Shown here: positions 1,043 through 17,369 of the stretch, piece by piece
Layout of the letters: every line of letters begins with the position of its first letter
Position numbering within the stretch: position 1 is the stretch's first letter
Source: Ruminiclostridium papyrosolvens DSM 2782
GTDB taxonomy: Bacteria; Bacillota; Clostridia; Acetivibrionales; DSM-1351
Length of the DNA: 64,000 nt
Direction of reading: 5' to 3'
Assembly (NCBI RefSeq): GCF_029318685.1
Contig: NZ_CP119677.1
Coordinates: 434,001 to 498,000, forward strand
Position numbers and translations under genes: made by a program
The notes under the pieces: generated by a model
What the model was told of the DNA's origin: nothing
What the model saw: the letters and a program-made list of their open reading frames with translations, nothing else
Database searches by the model: none

Positions 1043-1086
1043 GGCAGACTGTTATTTCCGATTAATTAAAAAAAGAATATGGGAAT

Positions 1087-1130
1087 ATAAAACCCCTCTT
1101 TGGCGACAATAGCCAAACGAGGGGTTTTAT
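1087..1130 (+). terminator. Rho-independent terminator after clpC
   Basis: A perfect 12-bp inverted repeat (1087-1098 with 1119-1130) is extended inward by a second paired block (TTTGGC at 1099-1104 with GCCAAA at 1112-1117). The outer arm ends in TTTTAT. It separates clpC from the RiPP locus. Confidence 0.9.
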
Positions 1131-1155
1131 AATGACTTGATTATTTCCGGTAGGT

Positions 1156-1184
1156 TTGACGTATGAATATGATGTATATACAAT
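1156..1184 (+). promoter_or_regulatory. SigA-type promoter of the RiPP locus
   Basis: TTGACG at 1156-1161, a 17-base spacer, then TACAAT at 1179-1184. It lies 60 bases upstream of the radical SAM gene and downstream of the clpC terminator, so the locus should be transcribed on its own. Confidence 0.75.
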
Positions 1185-1243
1185 TATTTACATTGAAGAG
1201 ATAAATTGCAATAAACCAAAATATCGGAAAGGAAGTCTGCATT

Positions 1244-2650
1244 ATGATTGTATATAAGCTTTTAAAGACTCCGTTACAATATTATGTTTATGACAGAAAT
1301 AAGAATAAAATCCTAAATATAAGCAAGGAGGAGTATGAAGAGCTTGACAGATTAAATAAAAAGCAGATTACTGAAAAAGAAGCAGTCTGTCTTAAAAAAT
1401 ATCAGAAGTGTGGATATTTAAAGAATAATATTGTTGAAAATATAGTTCATCCCGAAACTAAATATATAAAGCATTATCTGGAGCACAGAGTACAGTTCCT
1501 CATATTACAGGTTACACAAAGCTGCAATCTCAGGTGCGATTATTGCACATATTCAGGACAATATAACACAAGAGGTCACTCCGGCAAGTCAATGACATGG
1601 GAACTGGCGAAAAAGTCAATTGATTATCTATATCAACATTCAAATGAAATTGAAAAAGTCAGAATAAGCTTCTACGGTGGCGAGCCATTACTTGAAATTG
1701 ACTTGATAAAAAAATGTGTAGAGTACGTTAAAGAAACATATCCTCACAGAATAACAAACTATGGAATTACTACTAACGGTACACTTCTTTCAGGTGAAAT
1801 AGCTGACTTTCTAATAGATAATCAATTCTCTGTTACCATAAGCCTTGACGGCTCTAAAAAGGATCATGATGCCAACAGAAAGTTTGCAAATGGAGAAGGC
1901 AGCTTTGATACAATCATAAATAATATCAAAGTGATAAGTAAACATAACAAGGAATTTATTAAAAATATCAGATTTAATACTGTTTTAAATCCAAAATCAG
2001 ATTATGGTACTGTGAGAAATTATTTCAGCTCGGAAGATGTGGTATGTGATGCAGGTATCGGTCTTAGTCTTATGGAGCAAATTAACCATAAAGGGGACAT
2101 CTCCTTTAGCCATGAATTTATTAATATAAGAAGATATGACTACTTTCTGTTATTAATGACCATGGTAAAAAAGTTAAAAAAAGAGGTAACACCAAAGTTC
2201 ATGGCTGAAATAAAATCAGGAATTGATATTGATTATACTTCCATGGAGGATATTAATAGTGTAAGTAAATCATGGCATCATTCGGGGCCGTGTATTGCAG
2301 GAGCTATGAGAATGTTTGTAAATACTGATGGTGTAATCTATCCCTGTGAAAAAGCAATTGAAACCAGTGAAGCCATGAAAATAGGCGAAATTGATAGCGG
2401 TACGGATGCGGGTAAAGCCTCAAAGGTAATGAATATAGGAAAAATCTCAGAAAGAGATTGCAAAAACTGCTGGGCTATAAACTGGTGCTCCATGTGTGCA
2501 TTATATGCTGAGAAGGATGGAAAATTTGATTCAGTCACAAAAAGGAAAAATTGTGCAAAATCACTTATAGATGCACAAGAAAAGCTTCTGAACATATGTG
2601 CTTTAAAAGAATTCGGATATAAATTCGGAAGGGAGGAAATGTATGTATAA
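1244..2650 (+). CDS. ccpM: Radical SAM/SPASM peptide maturase, CcpM-like
   Basis: A 468-residue radical SAM enzyme predicted to modify the small Cys-rich peptide encoded at 4079. The N-terminal ~85 residues look like a peptide-recognition region. The radical SAM cluster motif CNLRCDYC places cysteines at residues 94, 98 and 101, and GGEP follows at 145-148. The C-terminal SPASM region has seven further cysteines (350, 368, 406, 409, 415, 418, 437), enough for auxiliary Fe-S clusters. The size, the motif layout and the neighbours match the Cys-rich peptide maturase CcpM of the Clo7bot-type clostridial system. RBS GGAAAGGAAG precedes the ATG. The stop overlaps the next start by 8 bases, so translation is coupled. 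The chemistry performed on the peptide is not deducible from sequence. Confidence 0.85.
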   Translation: MIVYKLLKTPLQYYVYDRNKNKILNISKEEYEELDRLNKKQITEKEAVCLKKYQKCGYLKNNIVENIVHPETKYIKHYLEHRVQFLILQVTQSCNLRCDYCTYSGQYNTRGHSGKSMTWELAKKSIDYLYQHSNEIEKVRISFYGGEPLLEIDLIKKCVEYVKETYPHRITNYGITTNGTLLSGEIADFLIDNQFSVTISLDGSKKDHDANRKFANGEGSFDTIINNIKVISKHNKEFIKNIRFNTVLNPKSDYGTVRNYFSSEDVVCDAGIGLSLMEQINHKGDISFSHEFINIRRYDYFLLLMTMVKKLKKEVTPKFMAEIKSGIDIDYTSMEDINSVSKSWHHSGPCIAGAMRMFVNTDGVIYPCEKAIETSEAMKIGEIDSGTDAGKASKVMNIGKISERDCKNCWAINWCSMCALYAEKDGKFDSVTKRKNCAKSLIDAQEKLLNICALKEFGYKFGREEMYV

Positions 2651-3725
2651 ACTTCTGGTCTACCCCTTTAGTATGGAAGACAACTGTATAACAAAATATC
2701 GGGATATGCTTCGGGGCTACGAGCTTGCTAGTTTGGTATGCTTTGAGGGTGCATATGAAAACGGCAGAGATGCAGGAGAGTTTGAGGAAGTAGATACGGG
2801 TTTAATAATAACTGATGATTTTAATACGGAGATTGATAAATGCGATGTGGTACTTTTGTTGGATAAAAGTTTTAATGAATTAAAGGACGCATACATTCAA
2901 AGGATTAATACTGCCGTATCAAAAAATAAAATAGTTATGACAAATAATAAGATATACGACTTTTGCTTAAAAGAGTTTTCCGGCAATAAAAATATAAGAA
3001 TACTGGACAATGTTCTGGAGACCGGATTGAATTATTTTACATATGACAAGAGAATGACACAGCCGGACATTCCTGTAATCACTGTCATGTCCATTGGAGA
3101 GAGCTGTAATAAATTTGAGGCACAGCTTGATTTAAGAAAGAAATTTCAGGATAAGGGCTACAAGATATTACAGTTTGGTACAAAGGATTATTGTGATTTG
3201 TTTGGCTTCAAAAAGCTTCCATCCTTTCTTATGTCCAAAAATATTTCATTTGATGAAAAAGTATATATGTTTAATTACTATATAAACAGAGAAGTGTTAA
3301 AAGACGATTATGATATTGTTATTATTGGTGTGGCAGGGGGAATACTCCCTGTTAACAGATATATAACCAATTACTTCGGAGAAATTTCTTTGATTGTGTC
3401 TTCTGCACTGAATATAGATATTAATATATTATGTTCATATCATAATGAAGACATTAATGTTGAAAGCTTATATGAATGCCGAAATTTCTGCAAAGGACGA
3501 CTTGGGTGCTTTACGGACTACTATTATATGTCTGACAGGCAGTTCAGAATTTCTCATGACCATGATATAGAGTATTTTATGTTGGAAAGACAGCATTGCA
3601 TTAATAATCTGCCGGCTATCGACAATGAAACACTGAAATTCTGTCATGTGTTGGATACAGATGTAAAGGATAATCTGCTGAATGCTTTGGTAGAAGAATT
3701 GGAAGGTAATGTGGCACTTGTATAA
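2643..3725 (+). CDS. Peptide maturation accessory protein (TIGR04066-like)
   Basis: A 360-residue soluble protein coupled to the maturase gene by an 8-base overlap. The N-terminal half (MYKLLVYPFSMEDN, then a D/E-rich Rossmann-like segment with DVVLLLD) and the C-terminal half (from about residue 140, starting IPVITVMSIGESCNKFE) look like two alpha/beta domains. The GESCNK segment sits where a P-loop would lie but is not a canonical Walker A. The arrangement matches the clostridial peptide maturation system protein family (TIGR04066), whose members sit beside CcpM-type enzymes. The biochemical role is unknown. Family membership is from memory of conserved context and length, not from a search. 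Confidence 0.7.
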   Translation: MYKLLVYPFSMEDNCITKYRDMLRGYELASLVCFEGAYENGRDAGEFEEVDTGLIITDDFNTEIDKCDVVLLLDKSFNELKDAYIQRINTAVSKNKIVMTNNKIYDFCLKEFSGNKNIRILDNVLETGLNYFTYDKRMTQPDIPVITVMSIGESCNKFEAQLDLRKKFQDKGYKILQFGTKDYCDLFGFKKLPSFLMSKNISFDEKVYMFNYYINREVLKDDYDIVIIGVAGGILPVNRYITNYFGEISLIVSSALNIDINILCSYHNEDINVESLYECRNFCKGRLGCFTDYYYMSDRQFRISHDHDIEYFMLERQHCINNLPAIDNETLKFCHVLDTDVKDNLLNALVEELEGNVALV

Positions 3726-3738
3726 AAAGGAGGAGCTT

Positions 3739-4014
3739 ATGGAAAAAAGAGAAGTAATGAATGAAATAAAAGAAACTGTATATAAGATAACAGGAATTAA
3801 AATAGAGGATGAAAATGATAATATTATCGGATGCCATCATAACTACCCTATTATATATGCAATTTATATTGTGGATGAACTTGAAAAAATATTCGGTAAG
3901 GAGATTTCAAATATATTTGCTGAAAATGATTACAACGTATGGAAATTATCAAATTTGGCAGATGCCATTATAAATATATGTGGTAATTCTTTAGAAAAGC
4001 TTCAGGCAGTTTAA
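3739..4014 (+). CDS. Acyl-carrier-related small protein of the peptide maturation system
   Basis: A 91-residue acidic helical protein 13 bases after the previous gene. The ATG at 3739 is chosen because AAGGAGG lies just before it; an upstream in-frame ATG at 3709 has no RBS and overlaps the preceding gene. The pattern (helix, loop with IIGCHHNYPIIYAI, helix VDELEKIFG, then LADAI) resembles an acyl carrier protein, in line with the acyl-carrier-related member of CcpM loci. The serine that carries phosphopantetheine in true carrier proteins (DSL motif) is absent; the equivalent stretch reads CHHNYP. It may be a docking or recognition protein rather than a thioester carrier. Confidence 0.65.
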   Translation: MEKREVMNEIKETVYKITGIKIEDENDNIIGCHHNYPIIYAIYIVDELEKIFGKEISNIFAENDYNVWKLSNLADAIINICGNSLEKLQAV

Positions 4015-4078
4015 TTTCAAAAGGGTATATCATTTATTTATTAAATGATTACATAAAAACTTTTCAGGAGGTATTTTT

Positions 4079-4276
4079 ATGAAAAAATTATCCAAAAGAA
4101 GTGAGTTAGTACCTAACACAGTTATGGCATTTTCGTGTTCCTGTTCCAGCAACTGTTATAGGGGATGTGTTTCAAGGTGCAGCGGTAACGGAACCGCAGA
4201 AAGTGCTATCAGCAGCAGTCTTAGTTCAAGTGAGTATGGGGTAGCATATTCTGCAATATCCAGCACATTCGGTTAA
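4079..4276 (+). CDS. Cys/Ser-rich RiPP precursor peptide, Clo7bot-like
   Basis: A 65-residue peptide with a strong RBS (CAGGAGG). The leader-like start MKKLSKRSELVPNTVMAF is followed by a cysteine block with Cys at 20, 22, 26, 30 and 34 (C-x-C-x3-C-x3-C-x3-C), then a Gly/Ser/Ala-rich tail with many serines and the chain end SSTFG. It is the last gene of the locus, after the maturase and two accessory genes and before a terminator. The clostridial Cys-rich Clo7bot peptides have this layout. Core boundaries, cleavage site and final structure are unknown, and no dedicated protease or exporter gene is adjacent. Confidence 0.75.
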   Translation: MKKLSKRSELVPNTVMAFSCSCSSNCYRGCVSRCSGNGTAESAISSSLSSSEYGVAYSAISSTFG

Positions 4277-4293
4277 TAGAGTTTCTGACCACC

Positions 4294-4321
4294 AAAAGGA
4301 GTACCACCCGGTACTCCTTTT
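4294..4321. terminator. Bidirectional terminator between the RiPP locus and the glycosyltransferase
   Basis: A perfect 12-bp stem (4294-4305 with 4310-4321) with a 4-base loop. The arms begin with AAAA and end with TTTT, so it can terminate transcription from both converging genes. Confidence 0.9.
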
Positions 4322-4331
4322 ACAATATTAG

Positions 4332-5594
4332 TTACCCATTGCTTTTCTCCAACTCGCTTATACTAATCTGCCTTGTATGGACGGTGTGGTTCCACTCCTT
4401 GTTGTTTTTTTCAATAAAGCCCTGTATGGTAATAGGTACCCAGGTCAGGCAATAGTAAGGGTAGATAACAAACCCAAGTATAACCTTCAAACTGAACTTC
4501 TTTTCTGCCAGAATAACCAACGGCCCGTAGAGGATTTCAAAGAGGCCCATCAGATACCATACCTGAACGGGAAATACATATTGTACGCTATATATGGGGA
4601 ATTGCGGGTAAACCGTTTGCACCCACATCATAACAGTCATTAAACCTACAAAAATAAATCTTATGGGTTGAAACAAATATAAGGCACAGTCAAGAGAGGT
4701 AAGGTCTCCTTTAAAAAAAGCTTTTTTAAATAAAGCTCCAAGGTATTTCTGGGCGCATTCAGCATGTCCCTGCATCCATCTTTTTCGTTGGTGCCAGGAC
4801 TGTTTCAGAGTAATTGGCTTTTCATCATAAACTACGGCTTCGTGTGCCCAACCAATTCTGACTCCATTTAAAGCCAGCTTCATTGTGTACTCCAAGTCTT
4901 CAGTCAGGCAGGTGGCTCCCCATTTTAAAGATTTAAGTATTGAGGTATCAATACAAAAGCCGGTTCCGCACAGCCCGCAGCTTAGCCTGAGATAGTATCT
5001 TGGCAACTGAAAAATTCTGTTTGACAGCCAGAAAGCAATGGAATAGGAGCAGGTTATCCAACTGTCATAGGGGTTTTTACTGTCAATGTAACCCTGAACC
5101 ACCTTGAAGCCTTTGCACATCTGCTTGTTCATTTCCAACAGAAAGTTTGGTGATACCAGATTATCGGCATCGAAAACAGCAACGGCATCATAGCTTGTAT
5201 CCATACTAAAAATTCTGCTAAACATCCATTCAAGCGCATGTCCTTTACCTCTTTTAGAGGCATCCTCACGGATATGTACTTTGGCTCCGAATTTTCGGGC
5301 AATTACAGCAGTATTGTCAGTACAATTATCAGCTATTACAAAAACATCAAATAGATTTCTGGGGTAGTTTAACTTAAAAAGACTGTCTATAATATGACCT
5401 ATTACAAGTTCCTCGTTATGGGCGGCTACTACAAGAGCAAACTTTTTTTGGGGTACAATAGTTCGTGAGAGTTTTTCCTTTTTCTTAATCCAACCGAAAA
5501 CAGATATTCCGAAAAAATAGCACCCTGCTATAAATACTAATATCTGTATAAGTTCGCTTATATAAAATATTAAATTAACAAATAAACTTTGCAT
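4332..5594 (-). CDS. Membrane glycosyltransferase, family 2
   Basis: A 420-residue processive-type GT2 enzyme, related to cellulose, hyaluronan or poly-N-acetylglucosamine synthases. A transmembrane segment lies near the N-terminus (LIFYISELIQILVF) and about three hydrophobic segments lie at the C-terminus. The catalytic core shows VVAAHNEE, ADNCTDNT, the metal site FDADN, TEDLEY and QRKRWMQGH, i.e. the D, DxD, D and QxxRW signature. The start at 5594 follows GGAGGAAAA; a longer in-frame start at 5621 has no RBS. The polysaccharide made is unknown. No partner genes of an exopolysaccharide cluster are adjacent, and the gene converges on the RiPP locus. Confidence 0.85.
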   Translation of the reverse strand: MQSLFVNLIFYISELIQILVFIAGCYFFGISVFGWIKKKEKLSRTIVPQKKFALVVAAHNEELVIGHIIDSLFKLNYPRNLFDVFVIADNCTDNTAVIARKFGAKVHIREDASKRGKGHALEWMFSRIFSMDTSYDAVAVFDADNLVSPNFLLEMNKQMCKGFKVVQGYIDSKNPYDSWITCSYSIAFWLSNRIFQLPRYYLRLSCGLCGTGFCIDTSILKSLKWGATCLTEDLEYTMKLALNGVRIGWAHEAVVYDEKPITLKQSWHQRKRWMQGHAECAQKYLGALFKKAFFKGDLTSLDCALYLFQPIRFIFVGLMTVMMWVQTVYPQFPIYSVQYVFPVQVWYLMGLFEILYGPLVILAEKKFSLKVILGFVIYPYYCLTWVPITIQGFIEKNNKEWNHTVHTRQISISELEKSNG

Positions 5595-5662
5595 TTTTTC
5601 CTCCAAAATAGTATTTATCAAAAAATAGTTTGTGCATAAAAGGATTAAATTATTTATATAAT

Positions 5663-5693
5663 TTGATACTCTGTAAAATCAATATGCTATAAT
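5663..5693 (+). promoter_or_regulatory. Extended -10 promoter for the GH15 gene
   Basis: TTGATA at 5663-5668 and TGCTATAAT ending at 5693. The spacer is 19 bases, which is long, but the TGN extension of the -10 box compensates. The RBS GCGGAGG follows before the start at 5719. Confidence 0.6.
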
Positions 5694-5718
5694 GAGGTAG
5701 TAAAATGCGGAGGTTTTT

Positions 5719-7653
5719 ATGCAAAAATCATATTATAACAACGCAATCTCGGGAAATTCTTCAATGCTGGCTTGTTTTAGTGAAAGAGCAGAACTTTTAA
5801 GACTCTTTTGGCCGGATATTGATTATGTACAGCATTTAGACAAAATATTTCTGGGACTATTTGAGAAAAATAAAACAGGGAGTACGGTATGGCTTAATGA
5901 CATTCGATGCGATAATCATCAGGAGTACCTTGCTGATTCCAATATAATAAAAAATACTATTACTAATTTTTTTGACGGATACAAGGTAGTACTATATGAC
6001 TTTGTACATCCGGAAATGGATGTTTTGGTTCGCAGGCTTGAAATTGAGAATCTTCATAATGAAAGCAGAGAATTGGGACTAATGAGTTTTTCAGCAGCTG
6101 CAAGCAGTGATGCTGAGGTGTCATGTAGTTTGTTTGATTTCATGAATGAAGCATTGGTTCACTACAAGCCGGATAATTACATTGCCGTTACATCAGATAT
6201 TCCCGCATATCAGTTTCAAATCGGGAATAATGCCAATGACGCCGCAATTAATACATACCTCTATGGCAAAGACGATATAGGAATGACGAAGGATGCAGCT
6301 ATCTCATGGGATTTGGGAGTTTTTCAGCCTCATACGGTAAAGACCGTAAATGTATATATATGTGCGGCAGCTAGTCTGAAATCCTGTAAAGCACTTGCTA
6401 GAAAAGTAAAAACAGTAGGAGGACTGACGGCTTTAAGGGAGACGGGACTGTATTGGAAGGAATATTTGAAGAAAACGACTCAACTAAAGTCGGGTAACAC
6501 ACTTTTGGATGAGCTTTATAAAAGGTCACTTCTTGTATTCAGGTTAATGTATAACAAAAAAAGCGGTGGGTTAATGGCAGCACCGGAAATTGATGAATAT
6601 TTTACGAAATGCGGTAAATATGCTTACTGTTGGGGAAGGGATGCCGCCTTTATAACAGGTGCCTTGGATATTGGGGGGCTAAACGAAAGCGTTGCCAATT
6701 TTTATAAATGGGCTACAGAGGTTCAGGATGAGGACGGCAGCTGGCAGCAGAGATATCATATGAATGGTAATTTAGGCCCTTGTTGGGGGCTTCAGGTGGA
6801 TGAGACAGGGACAATTGTATGGGGAATGTTGAACCATTACAACTATACAAAAAATACAGATTTTCTGAAATCCGTATGGGATAGTGTTAAGGCAGCAGCA
6901 GATTTCCTTGTAAGGTTTATAGATAGTGAAACAGGTCTTCCAAGCCCTAGTTTTGACTTGTGGGAAGAAAGATACGGGGAACATGCATACTCTTCAGCTT
7001 CTGTATGTGCAGGGCTCAGGTCAGCTGCGGAAATAGCACGTATACTTGGAAAACCGGCAGAGGATTTTATTTTATGGGATAAAACAGCGGACGATATAAA
7101 AAAAGCAATGGTAAAAAACTTCTGGAAAGAAGACTACAGACGATTTATCAGAAGTGTCAGAGTAAAATTAAACGGCTTCGGTCAGGAACCGTCCGGCGAT
7201 ACTATGTTAATTACGGTAAATCAAAAGGGTTACGTGCGGGATGTAACCAAAGAGGATTGGATTGTAGATATAAGTCTTGTTGGGCTTGGCATACCCTTCG
7301 GGATTTTTGATTTGGATGATCCTATGCTGAGGGATACGGTTTCTTTAATTGAACAAGTCCTGACGGCACAAAGCGTCGGTGGTATAAAGAGATATGAAAA
7401 CGACACATATATAGGCGGAAATCCATGGATTCTCACCACCCTCTGGATAGCACTGTACCATGCAAAATCAGGCAACTTTGAAAAGGCAAAGGAATATCTG
7501 ATATGGGCTGCAAACGGAAAAACAGATATGGGACTTCTGCCGGAACAGGTTAACAGGGACACGGGAAAACCCGAATGGATAATTCCCCTTACTTGGTCTC
7601 ATGCAATGTATGTACACGTCTATTCAGAGCTTGTAAATGCAGGCGTACTTTGA
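5719..7653 (+). CDS. Glycoside hydrolase family 15 (glucoamylase-like)
   Basis: A 644-residue enzyme with no signal peptide, so probably cytoplasmic. The N-terminal ~270 residues form a beta-sandwich-type domain as in bacterial GH15 glucoamylases. The C-terminal (alpha/alpha)6 domain shows YCWGRDAAF near residue 303, DLWEERYGEHAYSSAS near residue 412 and LLPEQV near residue 605; the WEER and LPEQ glutamates match the acid/base pair of GH15. The likely reaction is release of glucose from alpha-glucans or trehalose-like substrates, perhaps intracellular glycogen. radA follows only 36 bases downstream, so the two may share a transcript. The exact substrate cannot be read from the sequence. Confidence 0.85.
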   Translation: MQKSYYNNAISGNSSMLACFSERAELLRLFWPDIDYVQHLDKIFLGLFEKNKTGSTVWLNDIRCDNHQEYLADSNIIKNTITNFFDGYKVVLYDFVHPEMDVLVRRLEIENLHNESRELGLMSFSAAASSDAEVSCSLFDFMNEALVHYKPDNYIAVTSDIPAYQFQIGNNANDAAINTYLYGKDDIGMTKDAAISWDLGVFQPHTVKTVNVYICAAASLKSCKALARKVKTVGGLTALRETGLYWKEYLKKTTQLKSGNTLLDELYKRSLLVFRLMYNKKSGGLMAAPEIDEYFTKCGKYAYCWGRDAAFITGALDIGGLNESVANFYKWATEVQDEDGSWQQRYHMNGNLGPCWGLQVDETGTIVWGMLNHYNYTKNTDFLKSVWDSVKAAADFLVRFIDSETGLPSPSFDLWEERYGEHAYSSASVCAGLRSAAEIARILGKPAEDFILWDKTADDIKKAMVKNFWKEDYRRFIRSVRVKLNGFGQEPSGDTMLITVNQKGYVRDVTKEDWIVDISLVGLGIPFGIFDLDDPMLRDTVSLIEQVLTAQSVGGIKRYENDTYIGGNPWILTTLWIALYHAKSGNFEKAKEYLIWAANGKTDMGLLPEQVNRDTGKPEWIIPLTWSHAMYVHVYSELVNAGVL

Positions 7654-9165: not shown

Positions 9166-10251
9166 ATGAGGTTGGAGAGATTAAAAAATGACAGCTTTTT
9201 AGATGTTTTAAGGATGATGGCACCGGGAACTTCACTCCGAGAGGGTCTGGAAAACATATTAAAGGCAAAAACCGGTGCCTTGATTGTAATCGGGGACTCT
9301 CCAGAGGTAATAAAGATAGTTGATGGCGGATTTACCATAAACAAACCTTATACCTCATCACACCTTTATGAACTTGCAAAAATGGACGGAGCAATAATAG
9401 TCAGTAAGGATTTAAAGGTAATTTTGTATGCAAATGCACTCCTTATACCTGATGCCAGTATAGTAACCACTGAAACAGGAACCAGACATAAAACGGCAGA
9501 AAGATTTGCAAAACAGACAGGTGAGATTGTTTTATGTATTTCCCAAAGACGAAATGTTATTACCCTTTACAAGGATAACAGGAAATATATATTAAGGGAT
9601 ACATCAACAATACTGACCCGTGCAAATCAGGCATTGCAGACTCTGGAGAAGTACAAAAGCGTACTTGATGCAGGAATAAAGAATTTAAATGTAATGGAAT
9701 TAGAAGATATAGTTACACTCAACGATGTGGCATATGTTATTCAAAGGACTGAAATGGTAATGCGGATAGTTGACGAGATTGACAGGTATATTTGTGAGCT
9801 GGGCAATGAAGGAAGACTTATAAGCATGCAGTTAGAAGAACTTCTTCAGAATGTTGAGAACAATGTATGGCTTGTTATTGAGGATTACCAAATAAAAAAA
9901 GACGGGCAAAATACAAATGATATAATAAAACAGCTTCGCAGTTTGTCAAACGATGACCTTGTAGAACTTGCAAGCGTTACAAAACTATTAGGCTTCTCAG
10001 GAGCCGCAGTTTCGCTGGATACTGCTGTTTCACCAAGAGGCTACAGAATGTTGAGCCGTCTGCCAAAACTTCCTGTTACCATAATGAAAAATATAATTGG
10101 TGAGTTTCAGAATCTTCAGGGTGTAGTTAAGGCAAGTATAGAAGATTTGGATAAAGTTGAAGGCATCGGGGAAGTGCGGGCAAAATCCATTACAGAAGGC
10201 CTTTCGAGAATAAAGGAGCAGACTATAATGGATAAAAGGTCAATATATTAG
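9166..10251 (+). CDS. disA: DNA integrity scanning diadenylate cyclase DisA
   Basis: A 361-residue enzyme that makes c-di-AMP from two ATP and scans DNA for branched structures. The N-terminal DAC domain carries DGA at residues 74-76 and the RHKTAER motif from 107. A helical spine follows, and the C-terminal helix-hairpin-helix DNA-binding domain contains VEGIGEVRAKSI. The start at 9166 is chosen because GGAGGAG ends nine bases before it; the in-frame ATG at 9148 lies inside that RBS. The gene ends at a bidirectional terminator facing a convergent gene. Confidence 0.95.
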   Translation: MRLERLKNDSFLDVLRMMAPGTSLREGLENILKAKTGALIVIGDSPEVIKIVDGGFTINKPYTSSHLYELAKMDGAIIVSKDLKVILYANALLIPDASIVTTETGTRHKTAERFAKQTGEIVLCISQRRNVITLYKDNRKYILRDTSTILTRANQALQTLEKYKSVLDAGIKNLNVMELEDIVTLNDVAYVIQRTEMVMRIVDEIDRYICELGNEGRLISMQLEELLQNVENNVWLVIEDYQIKKDGQNTNDIIKQLRSLSNDDLVELASVTKLLGFSGAAVSLDTAVSPRGYRMLSRLPKLPVTIMKNIIGEFQNLQGVVKASIEDLDKVEGIGEVRAKSITEGLSRIKEQTIMDKRSIY

Positions 10252-10272
10252 TAAGACATGGGGAAATAAAAT

Positions 10273-10303
10273 AAAGGGATTAACATATTTGTTAATCCCT
10301 TTT
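10273..10303. terminator. Bidirectional terminator after disA
   Basis: A perfect 12-bp stem (10273-10284 with 10291-10302) with a 6-base loop, flanked by A and T runs. It serves disA and the convergent gene at 10306-10701. Confidence 0.9.
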
Positions 10304-10305
10304 AA

Positions 10306-10701
10306 TCATCTCAGATTATATTTGCCAAGCATCCGTATTCTGTCGTTTTCTTTTAAAATAATATCATAAAGATTTAAATCCAATGTGTTACAGATGGAAG
10401 CCAGATAAAAGAGATTTCTCCCAATATCACGTTCTATGGCATCCCTGCAATTGTCACATAAAGTACCTTCAACATGCCCATTCACAGAGTTTTTCATTTC
10501 GTCAAAGTTAGCATCGGCAGGAATATCCTGTTTGTGGGCATTGATGGTTAAACATCCACATTGAGTAACAGATTTAATAACCGCTCTGTTTACCCGGGAA
10601 TTTGAATCCTGATATTTCGTAATTAAGTCTAGAATACTCCTATTTCTTACAAGCAGCTCCTGTGCAGTGTATTGAAAATCATCAACAAGTATATCCTTCA
10701 T
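10306..10701 (-). CDS. Conserved hypothetical protein with a MazG-like tail
   Basis: A 131-residue soluble protein. A central SVTQCGC motif and a CDNC pair could bind a metal. The C-terminal part (IGRNLFYLASICNTLDLNLYDIIL) recalls the helical end of MazG-type nucleotide pyrophosphohydrolases. The start at 10701 follows GAGGTG at six bases; a GTG nine bases upstream is less likely. As I recall, relatives next to disA in clostridia carry a DUF1573-type name, which I have not verified. The gene has a near-perfect promoter. The function is unknown. Confidence 0.65.
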   Translation of the reverse strand: MKDILVDDFQYTAQELLVRNRSILDLITKYQDSNSRVNRAVIKSVTQCGCLTINAHKQDIPADANFDEMKNSVNGHVEGTLCDNCRDAIERDIGRNLFYLASICNTLDLNLYDIILKENDRIRMLGKYNLR

Positions 10702-10734
10702 GTGATTCACCTCAGTATTTAGATGTCTGCCTTT

Positions 10735-10763
10735 ATTATACTTTTACCTATAAATACTGTCAA
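10735..10763 (-). promoter_or_regulatory. SigA promoter for the 10306-10701 gene
   Basis: Read on the minus strand: TTGACA (10763-10758), a 17-base spacer, TATAAT (10740-10735). This is an exact consensus match, placed 34 bases upstream of the start codon. Confidence 0.85.
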
Positions 10764-10822
10764 ACCCCAAAAAACAATATTTAACAGAATTAATTTTAAC
10801 TGTTAATATATATGTTTGATTT

Positions 10823-10851
10823 TTGACATTAAATATTCTTTGTAGTATACT
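10823..10851 (+). promoter_or_regulatory. SigA promoter of the carD leader
   Basis: TTGACA at 10823-10828, a 17-base spacer, TATACT at 10846-10851. The predicted transcript start near 10858 leaves a leader of about 180 bases before carD. No second good promoter was found nearer to carD. Confidence 0.8.
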
Positions 10852-10885
10852 TGAATTATTGAGACAATTTTATATAAATTAATCC

Positions 10886-10934
10886 AAACGCACTCAACTA
10901 TAGTATTAGTGCGTTTTAGTATTTTTGTTTTATA
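10886..10934 (+). terminator. Terminator-like hairpin inside the carD leader
   Basis: A perfect 9-bp stem (AAACGCACT 10886-10894 with AGTGCGTTT 10908-10916) is followed by TTTTAGTATTTTTGTTTT. It lies only about 30 bases after the predicted transcript start and about 105 bases before the carD start, so most transcripts may stop here as a ~60-nt RNA, or read-through may be regulated. Confidence 0.6.
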
Positions 10935-11038: not shown

Positions 11039-11518
11039 ATGTATAACGTAGGAGATAAAATTGTATATCCCATGCATGGTGCGGGTGTTATTGAATCCAT
11101 AGAGGAAAAGGAAATACTTGGTAAAAAATGCAGCTATTATGTTATGAAAATACCTATTGGTGATTTGAAGGTTATGATACCTACCAATAACATTACTGAT
11201 ATAGGCATAAGAGGTGTAATAAGTGTTTCTGAAGCTGACAATGTCTTTAATTTTTTGAAGGACGGCCAGCATGAAATTCCATCCAATTGGAATAAACGCT
11301 ATCGGGAAAACATGGTCAAGATAAAAAGCGGCGACATTTTTGAGGTAGCTGATGTTGTTAGAAGTCTTATGCAAAGAGAAAAGGAAAAAGGGCTTTCTAC
11401 AGGTGAGAGAAAAATGTTGAGCAGCGCAAAACAGATACTAATAAGTGAATTGGTTCTTGTAAAAGGCATTAATCAGCATGAAGTTGAGATTAAAATCCAA
11501 GAGTACCTTTACGGCTGA
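11039..11518 (+). CDS. carD: CarD/CdnL-family transcription regulator
   Basis: A 159-residue protein of the CarD_CdnL_TRCF family, which binds the RNA polymerase beta subunit and stabilises open promoter complexes. The N-terminal RNAP-interacting domain starts MYNVGDKIVYPMHGAGVI with the usual Tudor-like pattern, and the C-terminal half is helical (YRENMVKIKSGDI, LSTGERKMLSSAKQIL). The start at 11039 follows ATGGAGGA; a longer frame from a TTG at 11012 would place the RBS inside the gene. It is 17 bases from the next gene and probably co-transcribed with the PIN/TRAM protein and ispD. Confidence 0.9.
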   Translation: MYNVGDKIVYPMHGAGVIESIEEKEILGKKCSYYVMKIPIGDLKVMIPTNNITDIGIRGVISVSEADNVFNFLKDGQHEIPSNWNKRYRENMVKIKSGDIFEVADVVRSLMQREKEKGLSTGERKMLSSAKQILISELVLVKGINQHEVEIKIQEYLYG

Positions 11519-11535
11519 GACGCCTTTGAAGGAGA

Positions 11536-12582
11536 ATGAATGTGCTAAACAGGATTATTAAAATATCTTTTTCTATTCTAGGAGCTGTTACCGGATTTAC
11601 TATTTTACATACAATTTTATCATTTAATATAAAAATCGGTGAAAATCTAAAAGTACCATTAGTGATACTGTTTTCATCCGTTTTCTGTGCCATTTTTTAT
11701 TTTATGGCAGCTAAGATAATTGAAGTGCTTACGGGCTTCATTGATAAGATTGAAAAAGGCATTCAAAATGTAACAATGTCTGAGCTGGTTCTGGGAGCTG
11801 CGGGACTTATACTTGGACTCATTGTTGCAAATCTTGTAAGCATACCGATAATGAAAATTCAGATTATAGGGCTGCCCTTTGCAGTAATAATAAATATATT
11901 GTTCGGACTTATGGGAGTTATCCTTTCCCAAAGAAAGAAAAATGAGAGTATAGCAGATATTTTTAAGGAGCAGTCTTCCTCTCGTAATAAGAAACTTGTT
12001 GACACCTGCACAATTATTGACGGTAGGATTCTTGACATATTCAATACAGGGTTTTTGGAAGGTGATATTGTAATTCCTGCTTATGTCCTTGAAGAACTAA
12101 GGCATATAGCTGATTCTCAGGACGGACTGAGGAGAGCCAGAGGCAGAAGAGGATTGGATATACTTAATCTGCTTCAAAAGGAAGGTAATAGTATTGTAAA
12201 AATAGACGAAACAGATTTCCCAGATATACAGGAAGTTGATGAAAAACTTCTTAAAACGGCACAAAAGCTAAAATGCAAGCTTATAACAATTGATTACAAC
12301 CTTACAAAGGTTGCTTCATTAAAGGGAATACAGGTGCTCAATATAAACGACCTTGCCAATGCAGTTAAACCCGTTGCTCTACCGGGGGAGGAAATGAATA
12401 TACTGGTTGTAAAAGATGGAAAAGAAAACGGACAAGGTGTTGGGTTTTTGGAAGATGGAACTATGGTTGTTGTAGATGGGGGTAAAAAGTATCTGGGTCA
12501 GACAATTCCCGTAATGGTAACAAGTATGCTTCAGACATCTGCGGGACGAATGGTTTTTGTTAAACCCAATATAAGTGATTAA
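11536..12582 (+). CDS. Membrane-anchored PIN/TRAM nuclease-like protein (YacL-like)
   Basis: A 348-residue protein related to Bacillus YacL. Four transmembrane segments fill residues ~5-135. A PIN domain follows with VDTCTIIDGRI, an acidic residue in LEELRHIAD, and ITIDYNL, consistent with a metal-dependent RNase site. A TRAM domain ends the chain (MNILVVKDGKENGQGVGFL). It is placed between carD and ispD, as in many Firmicutes (yacL between disA and ispD). RBS GAAGGAGA. The RNA substrate is unknown. Confidence 0.9.
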   Translation: MNVLNRIIKISFSILGAVTGFTILHTILSFNIKIGENLKVPLVILFSSVFCAIFYFMAAKIIEVLTGFIDKIEKGIQNVTMSELVLGAAGLILGLIVANLVSIPIMKIQIIGLPFAVIINILFGLMGVILSQRKKNESIADIFKEQSSSRNKKLVDTCTIIDGRILDIFNTGFLEGDIVIPAYVLEELRHIADSQDGLRRARGRRGLDILNLLQKEGNSIVKIDETDFPDIQEVDEKLLKTAQKLKCKLITIDYNLTKVASLKGIQVLNINDLANAVKPVALPGEEMNILVVKDGKENGQGVGFLEDGTMVVVDGGKKYLGQTIPVMVTSMLQTSAGRMVFVKPNISD

Positions 12583-15932: not shown

Positions 15933-17369
15933 ATGGCTAAGGATAAAAAACTGGTAGAAGAAATAACTTCTATGAATGATGATTTCGCACAGTGGTATAC
16001 CGATGTTATAAAGAAGGCTGAACTTGTAGATTACTCAAGTGTCAGAGGTTGTATGGTTATAAAGCCTTATGGCTATGCAATATGGGAAAATCTTCAGAAA
16101 GCCTTGGATACAAGATTTAAGGCTACAGGACATGAAAATGTTTACATGCCTATGTTCATACCTGAGAGCTTATTGCTAAAGGAAAAGGAGCATGTTGAAG
16201 GATTTGCACCTGAAGTTGCATGGGTAACTCACGGAGGAGATGAAAAGCTGACAGAAAGGCTTTGCGTAAGACCTACTTCTGAAACCCTGTTTTGCGAGCA
16301 TTATTCAAATTCCATCCAATCCTACAGAGACTTGCCAAAGCTCTATAACCAATGGTGTTCTGTAGTAAGATGGGAAAAGACTACAAGACCGTTTTTGAGA
16401 ACACTGGAATTTCTGTGGCAGGAAGGACATACTGCTCATGCTACAGCTGAGGAAGCTCAGGAAGAGACCATAAAAATGCTTAACGTATATGCTGATGTTT
16501 TGGAAAACGTACTTGCTATTCCTGTTATAAAAGGCAGAAAGACCGATAAGGAAAAATTTGCAGGAGCCCATGCTACCTACACAATTGAAAGCCTTATGCA
16601 TGATGGAAAGGCTTTACAATCGGGTACATCCCATAATTTTGGTGATGGGTTTGCAAAGGCTTTTGATATTCAATATACAGATAAGAACAATCAGCTCCAA
16701 TATGTACACCAGACCTCATGGGGCGTAACTACTCGTCTTATAGGTGCGATTATAATGGTACACGGAGATGACAGCGGTTTGGTTCTCCCTCCTGCAGTAG
16801 CGCCTACACAGTTGATTATAATACCTGTTTCTCAACATAAGGAAGGTGTTCTGGAGAAAGCAAATGAATTAAAAGACAGGCTTTCAGCTAAGTTCAGAGT
16901 AAAAATGGACGACAGCGACAAAATGCCGGGTTGGAAGTTCAGTGAATATGAGATGAAGGGTGTTCCTATGCGCCTTGAAATAGGTCCAAAGGATATTGAA
17001 AAGAATCAGGCTGTATTGGTTAGAAGAGATAACAGAGAGAAGATATTTGTTTCTTTGGACAATCTGGAAGAAACAGTTGAAAACACTCTTGCGGACATAC
17101 AGAATTCACTCCTTGAAAAGGCCAGAGAGTTAAGGGATAAGAAGACTTATACTGCTACAACTATTGATGAGTTTGAGCAAATCATAAATACCACCCCGGG
17201 CTTTGTAAAAGGTATGTGGTGCGGCGACCGTGAGTGTGAAGACCTGGTTAAGGAAAAGACAGGTGCAACGGCAAGATGTATGCCTTTTGAGCAGGAACAA
17301 CTGTCAGAGAAGTGCATGTGCTGCGGAAAACCTGCAAAATCAATGGTATACTGGGGTAAAGCATATTAA
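15933..17369 (+). CDS. proS: Prolyl-tRNA synthetase (short, archaeal/eukaryal-type)
   Basis: A 478-residue class IIa aminoacyl-tRNA synthetase that charges tRNA-Pro. It is the short form without the editing insertion found in the bacterial-type ~570-residue enzyme. Visible are motif 2 ([20 protein letters not shown]), motif 3 region ([13 protein letters not shown]), an anticodon-binding domain, and a C-terminal zinc-binding domain with cysteines in WCGDRECE and KCMCCGK. RBS GGAGG. It is a single-gene transcription unit with its own promoter and terminator. Confidence 0.95.

Follow-up and report, generated by a model that had tools for sequence, protein, structure and literature searches.

The CLI_3235/CcpM system, a family of ribosomally synthesized and post-translationally modified peptides (RiPPs), is already named in annotation (TIGR04065, TIGR04068, TIGR04066, TIGR04069), and one of its members has been reported to be antibacterial. 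This member, SacP23 of Paenibacillus polymyxa, was antibacterial after eight genes had been cloned into Bacillus subtilis, with an empty vector named as negative control; its product had m/z 3404 and a blocked N-terminus, 4455 Da having been predicted, and in the accessible part of the report the thioethers remain to be shown according to the authors (PMC10731318). In the accessible parts of two other reports the family is described in silico: a predicted Paenibacillus peptide was not detected in active fractions (PMC7343975), and no precursor was found in a Roseburia cluster (PMC4573289). The roles assigned to the accessory proteins are, in the portions of this literature at hand, guesses. 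Since subtilosin A of B. subtilis, the SacP23 host, is circular and has a mass of nearly m/z 3404, the assignment of the SacP23 product deserves a recheck. Here we describe a cassette of this family from Ruminiclostridium papyrosolvens DSM 2782, located in a stretch of 64,000 nucleotides (NZ_CP119677.1, positions 434,001 to 498,000) which we call the window. Two further systems serve for comparison, each as far as the accessible part of its report goes. In the maturation of the quinohemoprotein amine dehydrogenase gamma subunit (QhpD-QhpE-QhpF), QhpD forms Cys-to-Asp/Glu thioethers, QhpE acts in the cytoplasm to cut off a leader of 28 residues, and the product leaves the cell through an efflux ATP-binding cassette (ABC) transporter (PMC7876137). 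In the sactipeptide RumC2, CxC and CxxxC donors are linked to residues that follow 7 to 20 positions later (PMC8172795).

The window cassette consists of four genes between clpC (upstream) and a convergent glycosyltransferase gene (downstream). Their open reading frames were confirmed at positions 1244-2650, 2643-3725, 3739-4014 and 4079-4276, all on the plus strand, and code for the radical SAM/SPASM peptide maturase CcpM, a TIGR04066 protein (hereafter T4066), a protein with the fold of acyl carrier proteins (ACPs), and a 65-residue precursor peptide with five Cys. The third frame is nested in a longer one beginning at 3709, and its product has 91 residues. The cassette shares with the described CLI_3235/CcpM clusters the maturase, T4066 and an ACP-related gene, and the SacP23 precursor, as far as its report is accessible, belongs to the same named family as the window precursor. 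It differs from the published clusters in that the precursor gene is the last one and the ACP-like protein has no TIGR04069 match, and it lacks both the ABC transporter and the subtilase that the accessible descriptions give for the SacP23 and Roseburia clusters. The original prediction for this locus, made from the sequence, had listed a promoter, the maturase, two accessory genes, the five-Cys precursor and a terminator, with neither exporter nor leader protease adjacent, and all of this was confirmed, the promoter as a promoter-like site and the terminator as a hairpin. The label 'Clo7bot-type' given to it is not supported, because the only NCBIfam match of the precursor at E<=1 was TIGR04065 CLI_3235; a Clo7bot model is, we presume, present in that library.

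Judging from sequence comparisons, we consider it likely that this is a CLI_3235-type RiPP cassette with a thioether-forming CcpM, a platform made of T4066 and the ACP-fold protein, a QhpE-like S8 protease acting in trans, and non-dedicated export. CcpM would bind the precursor leader (MKKLSKRxxLxxNTVxAF), probably via its own N-terminal region, and would join the Cys of the block at residues 20-34 to Ser/Ala/Ile-rich tail residues through thioethers arranged as nested hairpins. T4066 and the ACP-fold protein, which lacks the phosphopantetheine Ser, would hold or pass on the substrate without catalysis; the S8 protease (G000:C1:4967898-4969097), with a T4066-like C-terminal domain, would cut off the leader in the cytoplasm, and a non-dedicated transporter would export the product, which might be antibacterial.

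CcpM matched NCBIfam TIGR04068 with 642.9 bits (curated equivalog cut-off 500) and Pfam Radical_SAM with 68.3 bits (cut-off 29.5); the Pfam SPASM score of 14.7 was below the cut-off of 21.5. In an alignment of 18 of the 38 CcpM proteins in hand, the radical SAM residues C94, C98 and C101 (CX3CX2C) as well as the SPASM auxiliary-cluster residues C350, C368, C406, C409, C415, C418 and C437 were invariant in 18/18. The PapB, RumMC, SCIFF and QhpD maturase families are among the profile relatives of CcpM, all of them matching below their cut-offs, and the relatives of highest score among those with a chemistry in their name, at 145-200 bits, either form thioethers or mature sacti/ranthipeptides. 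The best solved relative is structure 5wgg, with a match that begins in the N-terminal region; this structure is CteB, which forms the thioethers of SCIFF and binds the leader through a domain at its N-terminus. Since the related families include formers of both sactipeptides (Cys S linked to an alpha-carbon) and ranthipeptides (Cys S linked to another carbon), the attacked carbon cannot be told from sequence. Another radical chemistry of CcpM (a C-C or ether crosslink, or epimerisation), with the Cys ending as disulfides or metal ligands, appears unlikely: the C-C or cyclophane SPASM maturases YhhB, FxsB, GrrM and DynA also match CcpM, but at the lower scores of 59-94 bits, and the Cys are a constant feature of the precursors.

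The precursor matched TIGR04065 with 60.3 bits (cut-off 26) over residues 1-36. Its Cys residues 20, 22, 26, 30 and 34 form the claimed pattern C-x-C-x3-C-x3-C-x3-C, with a Ser-rich stretch after Cys34, and homologous precursors were found near the related maturases in 7/7 clade loci read. The leader is conserved across the seven clade members, and 15 alignment columns, mostly in the leader, are invariant in six of them. The Cys spacing shows six patterns among the seven precursors, with the final CxxxC kept in 7/7; counted from the last Cys, Leu/Ile at +14 and Ser at +16 are present in 7/7, and at locus L063 the anchor is short and the tail otherwise different. Given the donor spacing of RumC2 and this fixed tail register, thioethers would be expected by analogy to connect the final Cys residues with tail positions from about +8 onwards. 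The likeness to RumC, in the accessible part of its report, lies in the CxC and CxxxC donors ahead of the acceptor residues; the accessory genes differ, and the alpha-carbon link is that of RumC. In the literature searched, with subscription papers mostly outside its reach, we saw no CLI_3235 peptide whose crosslinks had been mapped, in line with the claim that the product chemistry is undescribed. That the precursor is 'unstudied' holds for its chemistry but not for its family, which is already in print, as the accessible parts of three papers show (PMC10731318, PMC7343975, PMC4573289). At L042, another CcpM locus of the window genome, two precursor frames of the family with identical translation lie about 5 kb apart (11353-11616 and 16332-16595), and the CcpM operon is followed by a large surface protein of the SpaA/collagen-binding type and a sortase.

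We read 35 regions with 37 CcpM frames, of which 12 regions contain an ABC-cluster frame of 549-622 residues and 8 a subtilase frame, with the same subtilase counted twice in the overlapping L053 and L054. At L077 of Anaeromicropila populeti, a member of the same clade as the window locus, an ABC exporter lies directly upstream of the window-type genes (5356-7014) and a subtilase between the ACP-like gene and the precursor (9732-10895). The best match of this subtilase in the window genome is the orphan S8 protease (93.8 bits, 33% identity), with three weaker ones up to E 0.01. Calling the window locus 'self-contained' is thus misleading, since a clade member carries exporter and protease in its cluster and the orphan protease of the window genome lies elsewhere. 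The gene group around the orphan, by eye sugar-nucleotide-like, recurs in four relatives (G002, G005, G006 and G007), whose S8 proteins are 67-80% identical to it. At E<=1e-15, all 11 genomes of the genus had at least one match to the orphan, the best ones outside these five genomes being 44-55% identical. The window genome (G000; 5.03 Mb in one contig, three CcpM loci), G002, G006 and G007 had one such match each for three or four CcpM loci, and G005 two for seven.

The orphan matched Pfam Peptidase_S8 with 56.2 (cut-off 21.8), and its best NCBIfam match was QhpE with 98.1 bits, below the cut-off of 165; likewise, CcpM scored 165.5 against the QhpD family TIGR03906 (cut-off 453). The likeness to Qhp (a SPASM radical SAM enzyme as putative thioether former, a leader protease of the subtilisin type and, at L077, an ABC transporter) is one of the order of steps rather than of family membership, and the window system differs in its short Cys-rich substrate and its extra T4066 and ACP-fold partners. 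The C-terminal domain of the CcpM-associated subtilases (L094 7896-9098, minus strand; L077 9732-10895) aligned with T4066 in a profile-profile comparison (hhalign) with a score of 61.9, against at most 20.0 in 100 shuffles and 15.0 for the N-terminal part of the S8 proteins (11 of the 12 in the set, the truncated L075 subtilase having been dropped). Because the cassette holds no subtilase while five genomes carry a conserved orphan S8 elsewhere, the leader may be removed by the orphan in trans.

An exporter of the CcpM type (at least 445 bits) was found in 7 of the 11 genus genomes. The best NCBIfam match of the L077 exporter is MsbA, below its cut-off, and its best match in the window genome is 26% identical. 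The product could instead stay in the cell, for instance as a metal-binding or regulatory peptide, without export or secretion, which we judge about as unlikely as the alternative chemistry. The position behind the clpC stress operon would fit such a peptide, as would the fact that a CcpM-type exporter was not found in G000, G002, G007 and G008, four of the 11 genus genomes (best score 272.3 bits). Against it, the clade member L077 has retained an exporter beside the maturase gene, and other ABC proteins of exporter type are numerous in the window genome (34 matches at E<=1e-20).

T4066 matched TIGR04066 with 409.1 bits (cut-off 200). Its profile, built from 25 proteins of the 33 regions having one, aligned with that of DUF1611 (PF07755, PF17396) with an hhalign score of 44.6, compared with a maximum of 26.7 in 200 shuffles, in a colinear two-domain alignment; T4066 differs in its degraded Walker A, whose Ser/Thr is replaced by Phe in 25/25 members. 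Subtilases were one of 14 negative controls in this comparison and scored 37.3, the other 13 at most 23.2, because their C-terminal domain is related to T4066. The relation to DUF1611 rests on profile-profile comparison, since the Pfam score was not reached: PF07755 listed 2 of the 25 members, with a best E of 0.19, and the window protein had no Pfam match at E<=10. A search of Protein Data Bank profiles gave nothing significant, with the DUF1611 structure 2g0t at E 0.95 as a lead only. Some DUF1611 enzymes act as acetyltransferases, of which the literature searched gave no instance; a search on DgcN, which we take to be a DUF1611 enzyme, returned nothing relevant.

The third protein had no NCBIfam or Pfam match at E<=1, including the ACP-related family TIGR04069 (cut-off 70 bits), and its site was not among the 12 matches at E<=10 obtained with TIGR04069 in the window genome. 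Of the profiles named in the original prediction, TIGR04068, TIGR04066 and a precursor family (TIGR04065) were hence recovered, whereas TIGR04069 was not. The carrier-protein fold does hold: the AlphaFold2 (AF2) model (predicted local distance difference test, pLDDT, 77.9) shows a four-helix carrier fold, with fold matches mostly to ACPs and peptidyl carrier proteins. The window-type set also aligned with that of the TIGR04069 type, scoring 24.3 where 60 shuffles gave at most 18.0 (sets of 6 and 29, which exclude L068_72 as truncated and L044_67 as a true carrier). In the sets used for counting the Ser site (6 and 30), the phosphopantetheine Ser of the DSL motif is replaced by Ile or Val in 6/6 window-type proteins. 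T4066 and the ACP-fold protein thus look like non-catalytic platforms. That they are instead an active acyl- or nucleotide-dependent pair adding a further group to the peptide, as the carrier-type fold and the DUF1611 relation might suggest, we regard as improbable in view of the missing prosthetic-group Ser and the altered Walker A.

Among the 11 genus genomes, CcpM matches at E<=1e-60 were found in all 11, above the cut-off in 10, with 37 matches in total; among 391 genomes of the class, a match at E<=1e-130 was found in 15, in 14 of them above the cut-off. The window type comprises six loci, five of them syntenic behind clpC (G000, G002, G005, G006 and G007) and the sixth at another site of the G007 genome. 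A midpoint-rooted FastTree of the 38 CcpM proteins, which did not include the SacP23 and Roseburia maturases, places these six and L077 in a separate clade (7/7 together, support 1.0). When up to four candidates per genome were scored with a window-type profile in the 391 class genomes, only the six loci exceeded 900 bits (next 397.6); with a profile of the window-type precursor in 58 genomes of the order, six loci scored at least 99.8 bits (next 33). A contig scan with two short peptide patterns, of limited reach, yielded two loci, and L076 is the syntenic locus in R. papyrosolvens C7. L052 and L070 belong to a second, distant CcpM-like group, and T4066 was not found in their regions. Decay is seen in relatives, namely an exporter remnant with stops (G009:C2:31031-31810) and a CcpM frame with a stop (L054 5187-6416).

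The cassette is missing from six genus members. In five of these, clpC and the glycosyltransferase gene are seen with no CcpM in the stretch read between them; in the sixth, G001, clpC is not on the contig. The gap between the two genes is empty in G004 and G009 and holds other genes in G003, G008 and G010. As different species hold different inserts there, the gap (window 1043-4331; L162, L163, L164, L166) takes insertions and looks like a hotspot for them. A single gain of the cassette in the ancestor of the five syntenic genomes is the simplest reading. Relative to the four syntenic orthologues, the ratio of nonsynonymous to synonymous substitution (dN/dS) was 0.09-0.11 in CcpM and 0.08-0.11 in T4066. 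The ACP-like gene had values of 0.10-0.31, and the precursor leader had 0.21-0.29. For the precursor core the ratio was 0.24 and 0.13 in two comparisons, and as synonymous sites were saturated in the other two of the four, diversifying selection on the core is not claimed. A decaying remnant of a formerly complete cluster, to which the exporter and protease present in L077 and absent here and the broken pieces of such loci in relatives might point, is very improbable, as CcpM and T4066 have dN/dS near 0.1 and the frames are open in five species.

A sigma-70-like promoter (TTGACG-17-TACAAT; 1156-1184, plus strand) has 10/12 matches, its -10 box being identical in 5/5 syntenic loci and its -35 box kept in 4/5. 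The scan gave 16 promoter-like sites and 17.0 were expected in shuffles, so that the number of sites does not lift this one above chance. Terminator-type hairpins, for which no strand is assigned, lie in the gap between clpC and the cassette (1086-1131, -28.5 kcal/mol, stem kept in the alignment of five loci) and 3' of the precursor gene (4294-4321, -17.8 kcal/mol). For each of them 0/200 shuffles were as good, and neither was listed by a simple terminator scan. An inverted repeat 5' of the precursor gene (4029-4049, plus strand), with arms invariant in 5/5 syntenic loci and a fold of 4014-4085 weakly better than shuffles (9/200 as good), possibly sets the precursor level.

Several points weigh against the proposed division of labour. 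The scans of single sequences with Pfam for DUF1611 were not significant, the DUF1611 side of the comparison consists of two sequences (from 2 of 99 genomes), and DUF1611 against the S8 C-terminus gave 18.4, that is, nothing. The AF2 model of T4066, made from three sequences, was poor (pLDDT 46.1) and was not used for fold searches, and the alignment between the window-type ACP-like set and true carriers is weak (25.8; shuffle maximum 18.0). The five S8-bearing genomes are mutually closest (glycosyltransferase 89-95% versus 76-80% identical), and since they form one related group, the joint pattern of S8 and cassette is not independent evidence; the orphan S8 might act for the remaining CcpM loci only. 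As the CcpM-type exporter was not found in the window genome, export there is putative. A more specific form of the platform proposal, possible in our view but doubtful, is that the Ser-less ACP-fold protein and the DUF1611-like protein carry the leader from maturase to protease, that the protease docks via its own copy of the platform domain, and that exporter and protease act from elsewhere, one subtilase serving the three CcpM loci of the genome.

According to the literature searched, the maturase clade fixed behind clpC in five Ruminiclostridium species is new, and so are the candidate trans protease, the Ser-less carrier fold, the relation to DUF1611 and the domain shared with the protease. 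For the accessory proteins, testable proposals are a carrier fold that does not act as a carrier, kinship with DUF1611 and a domain also present in the protease, and the four genes with their candidate trans protease offer a compact test system. If the platform reading is true, the peptide would be handed over from maturase to protease in a manner unusual for RiPPs.

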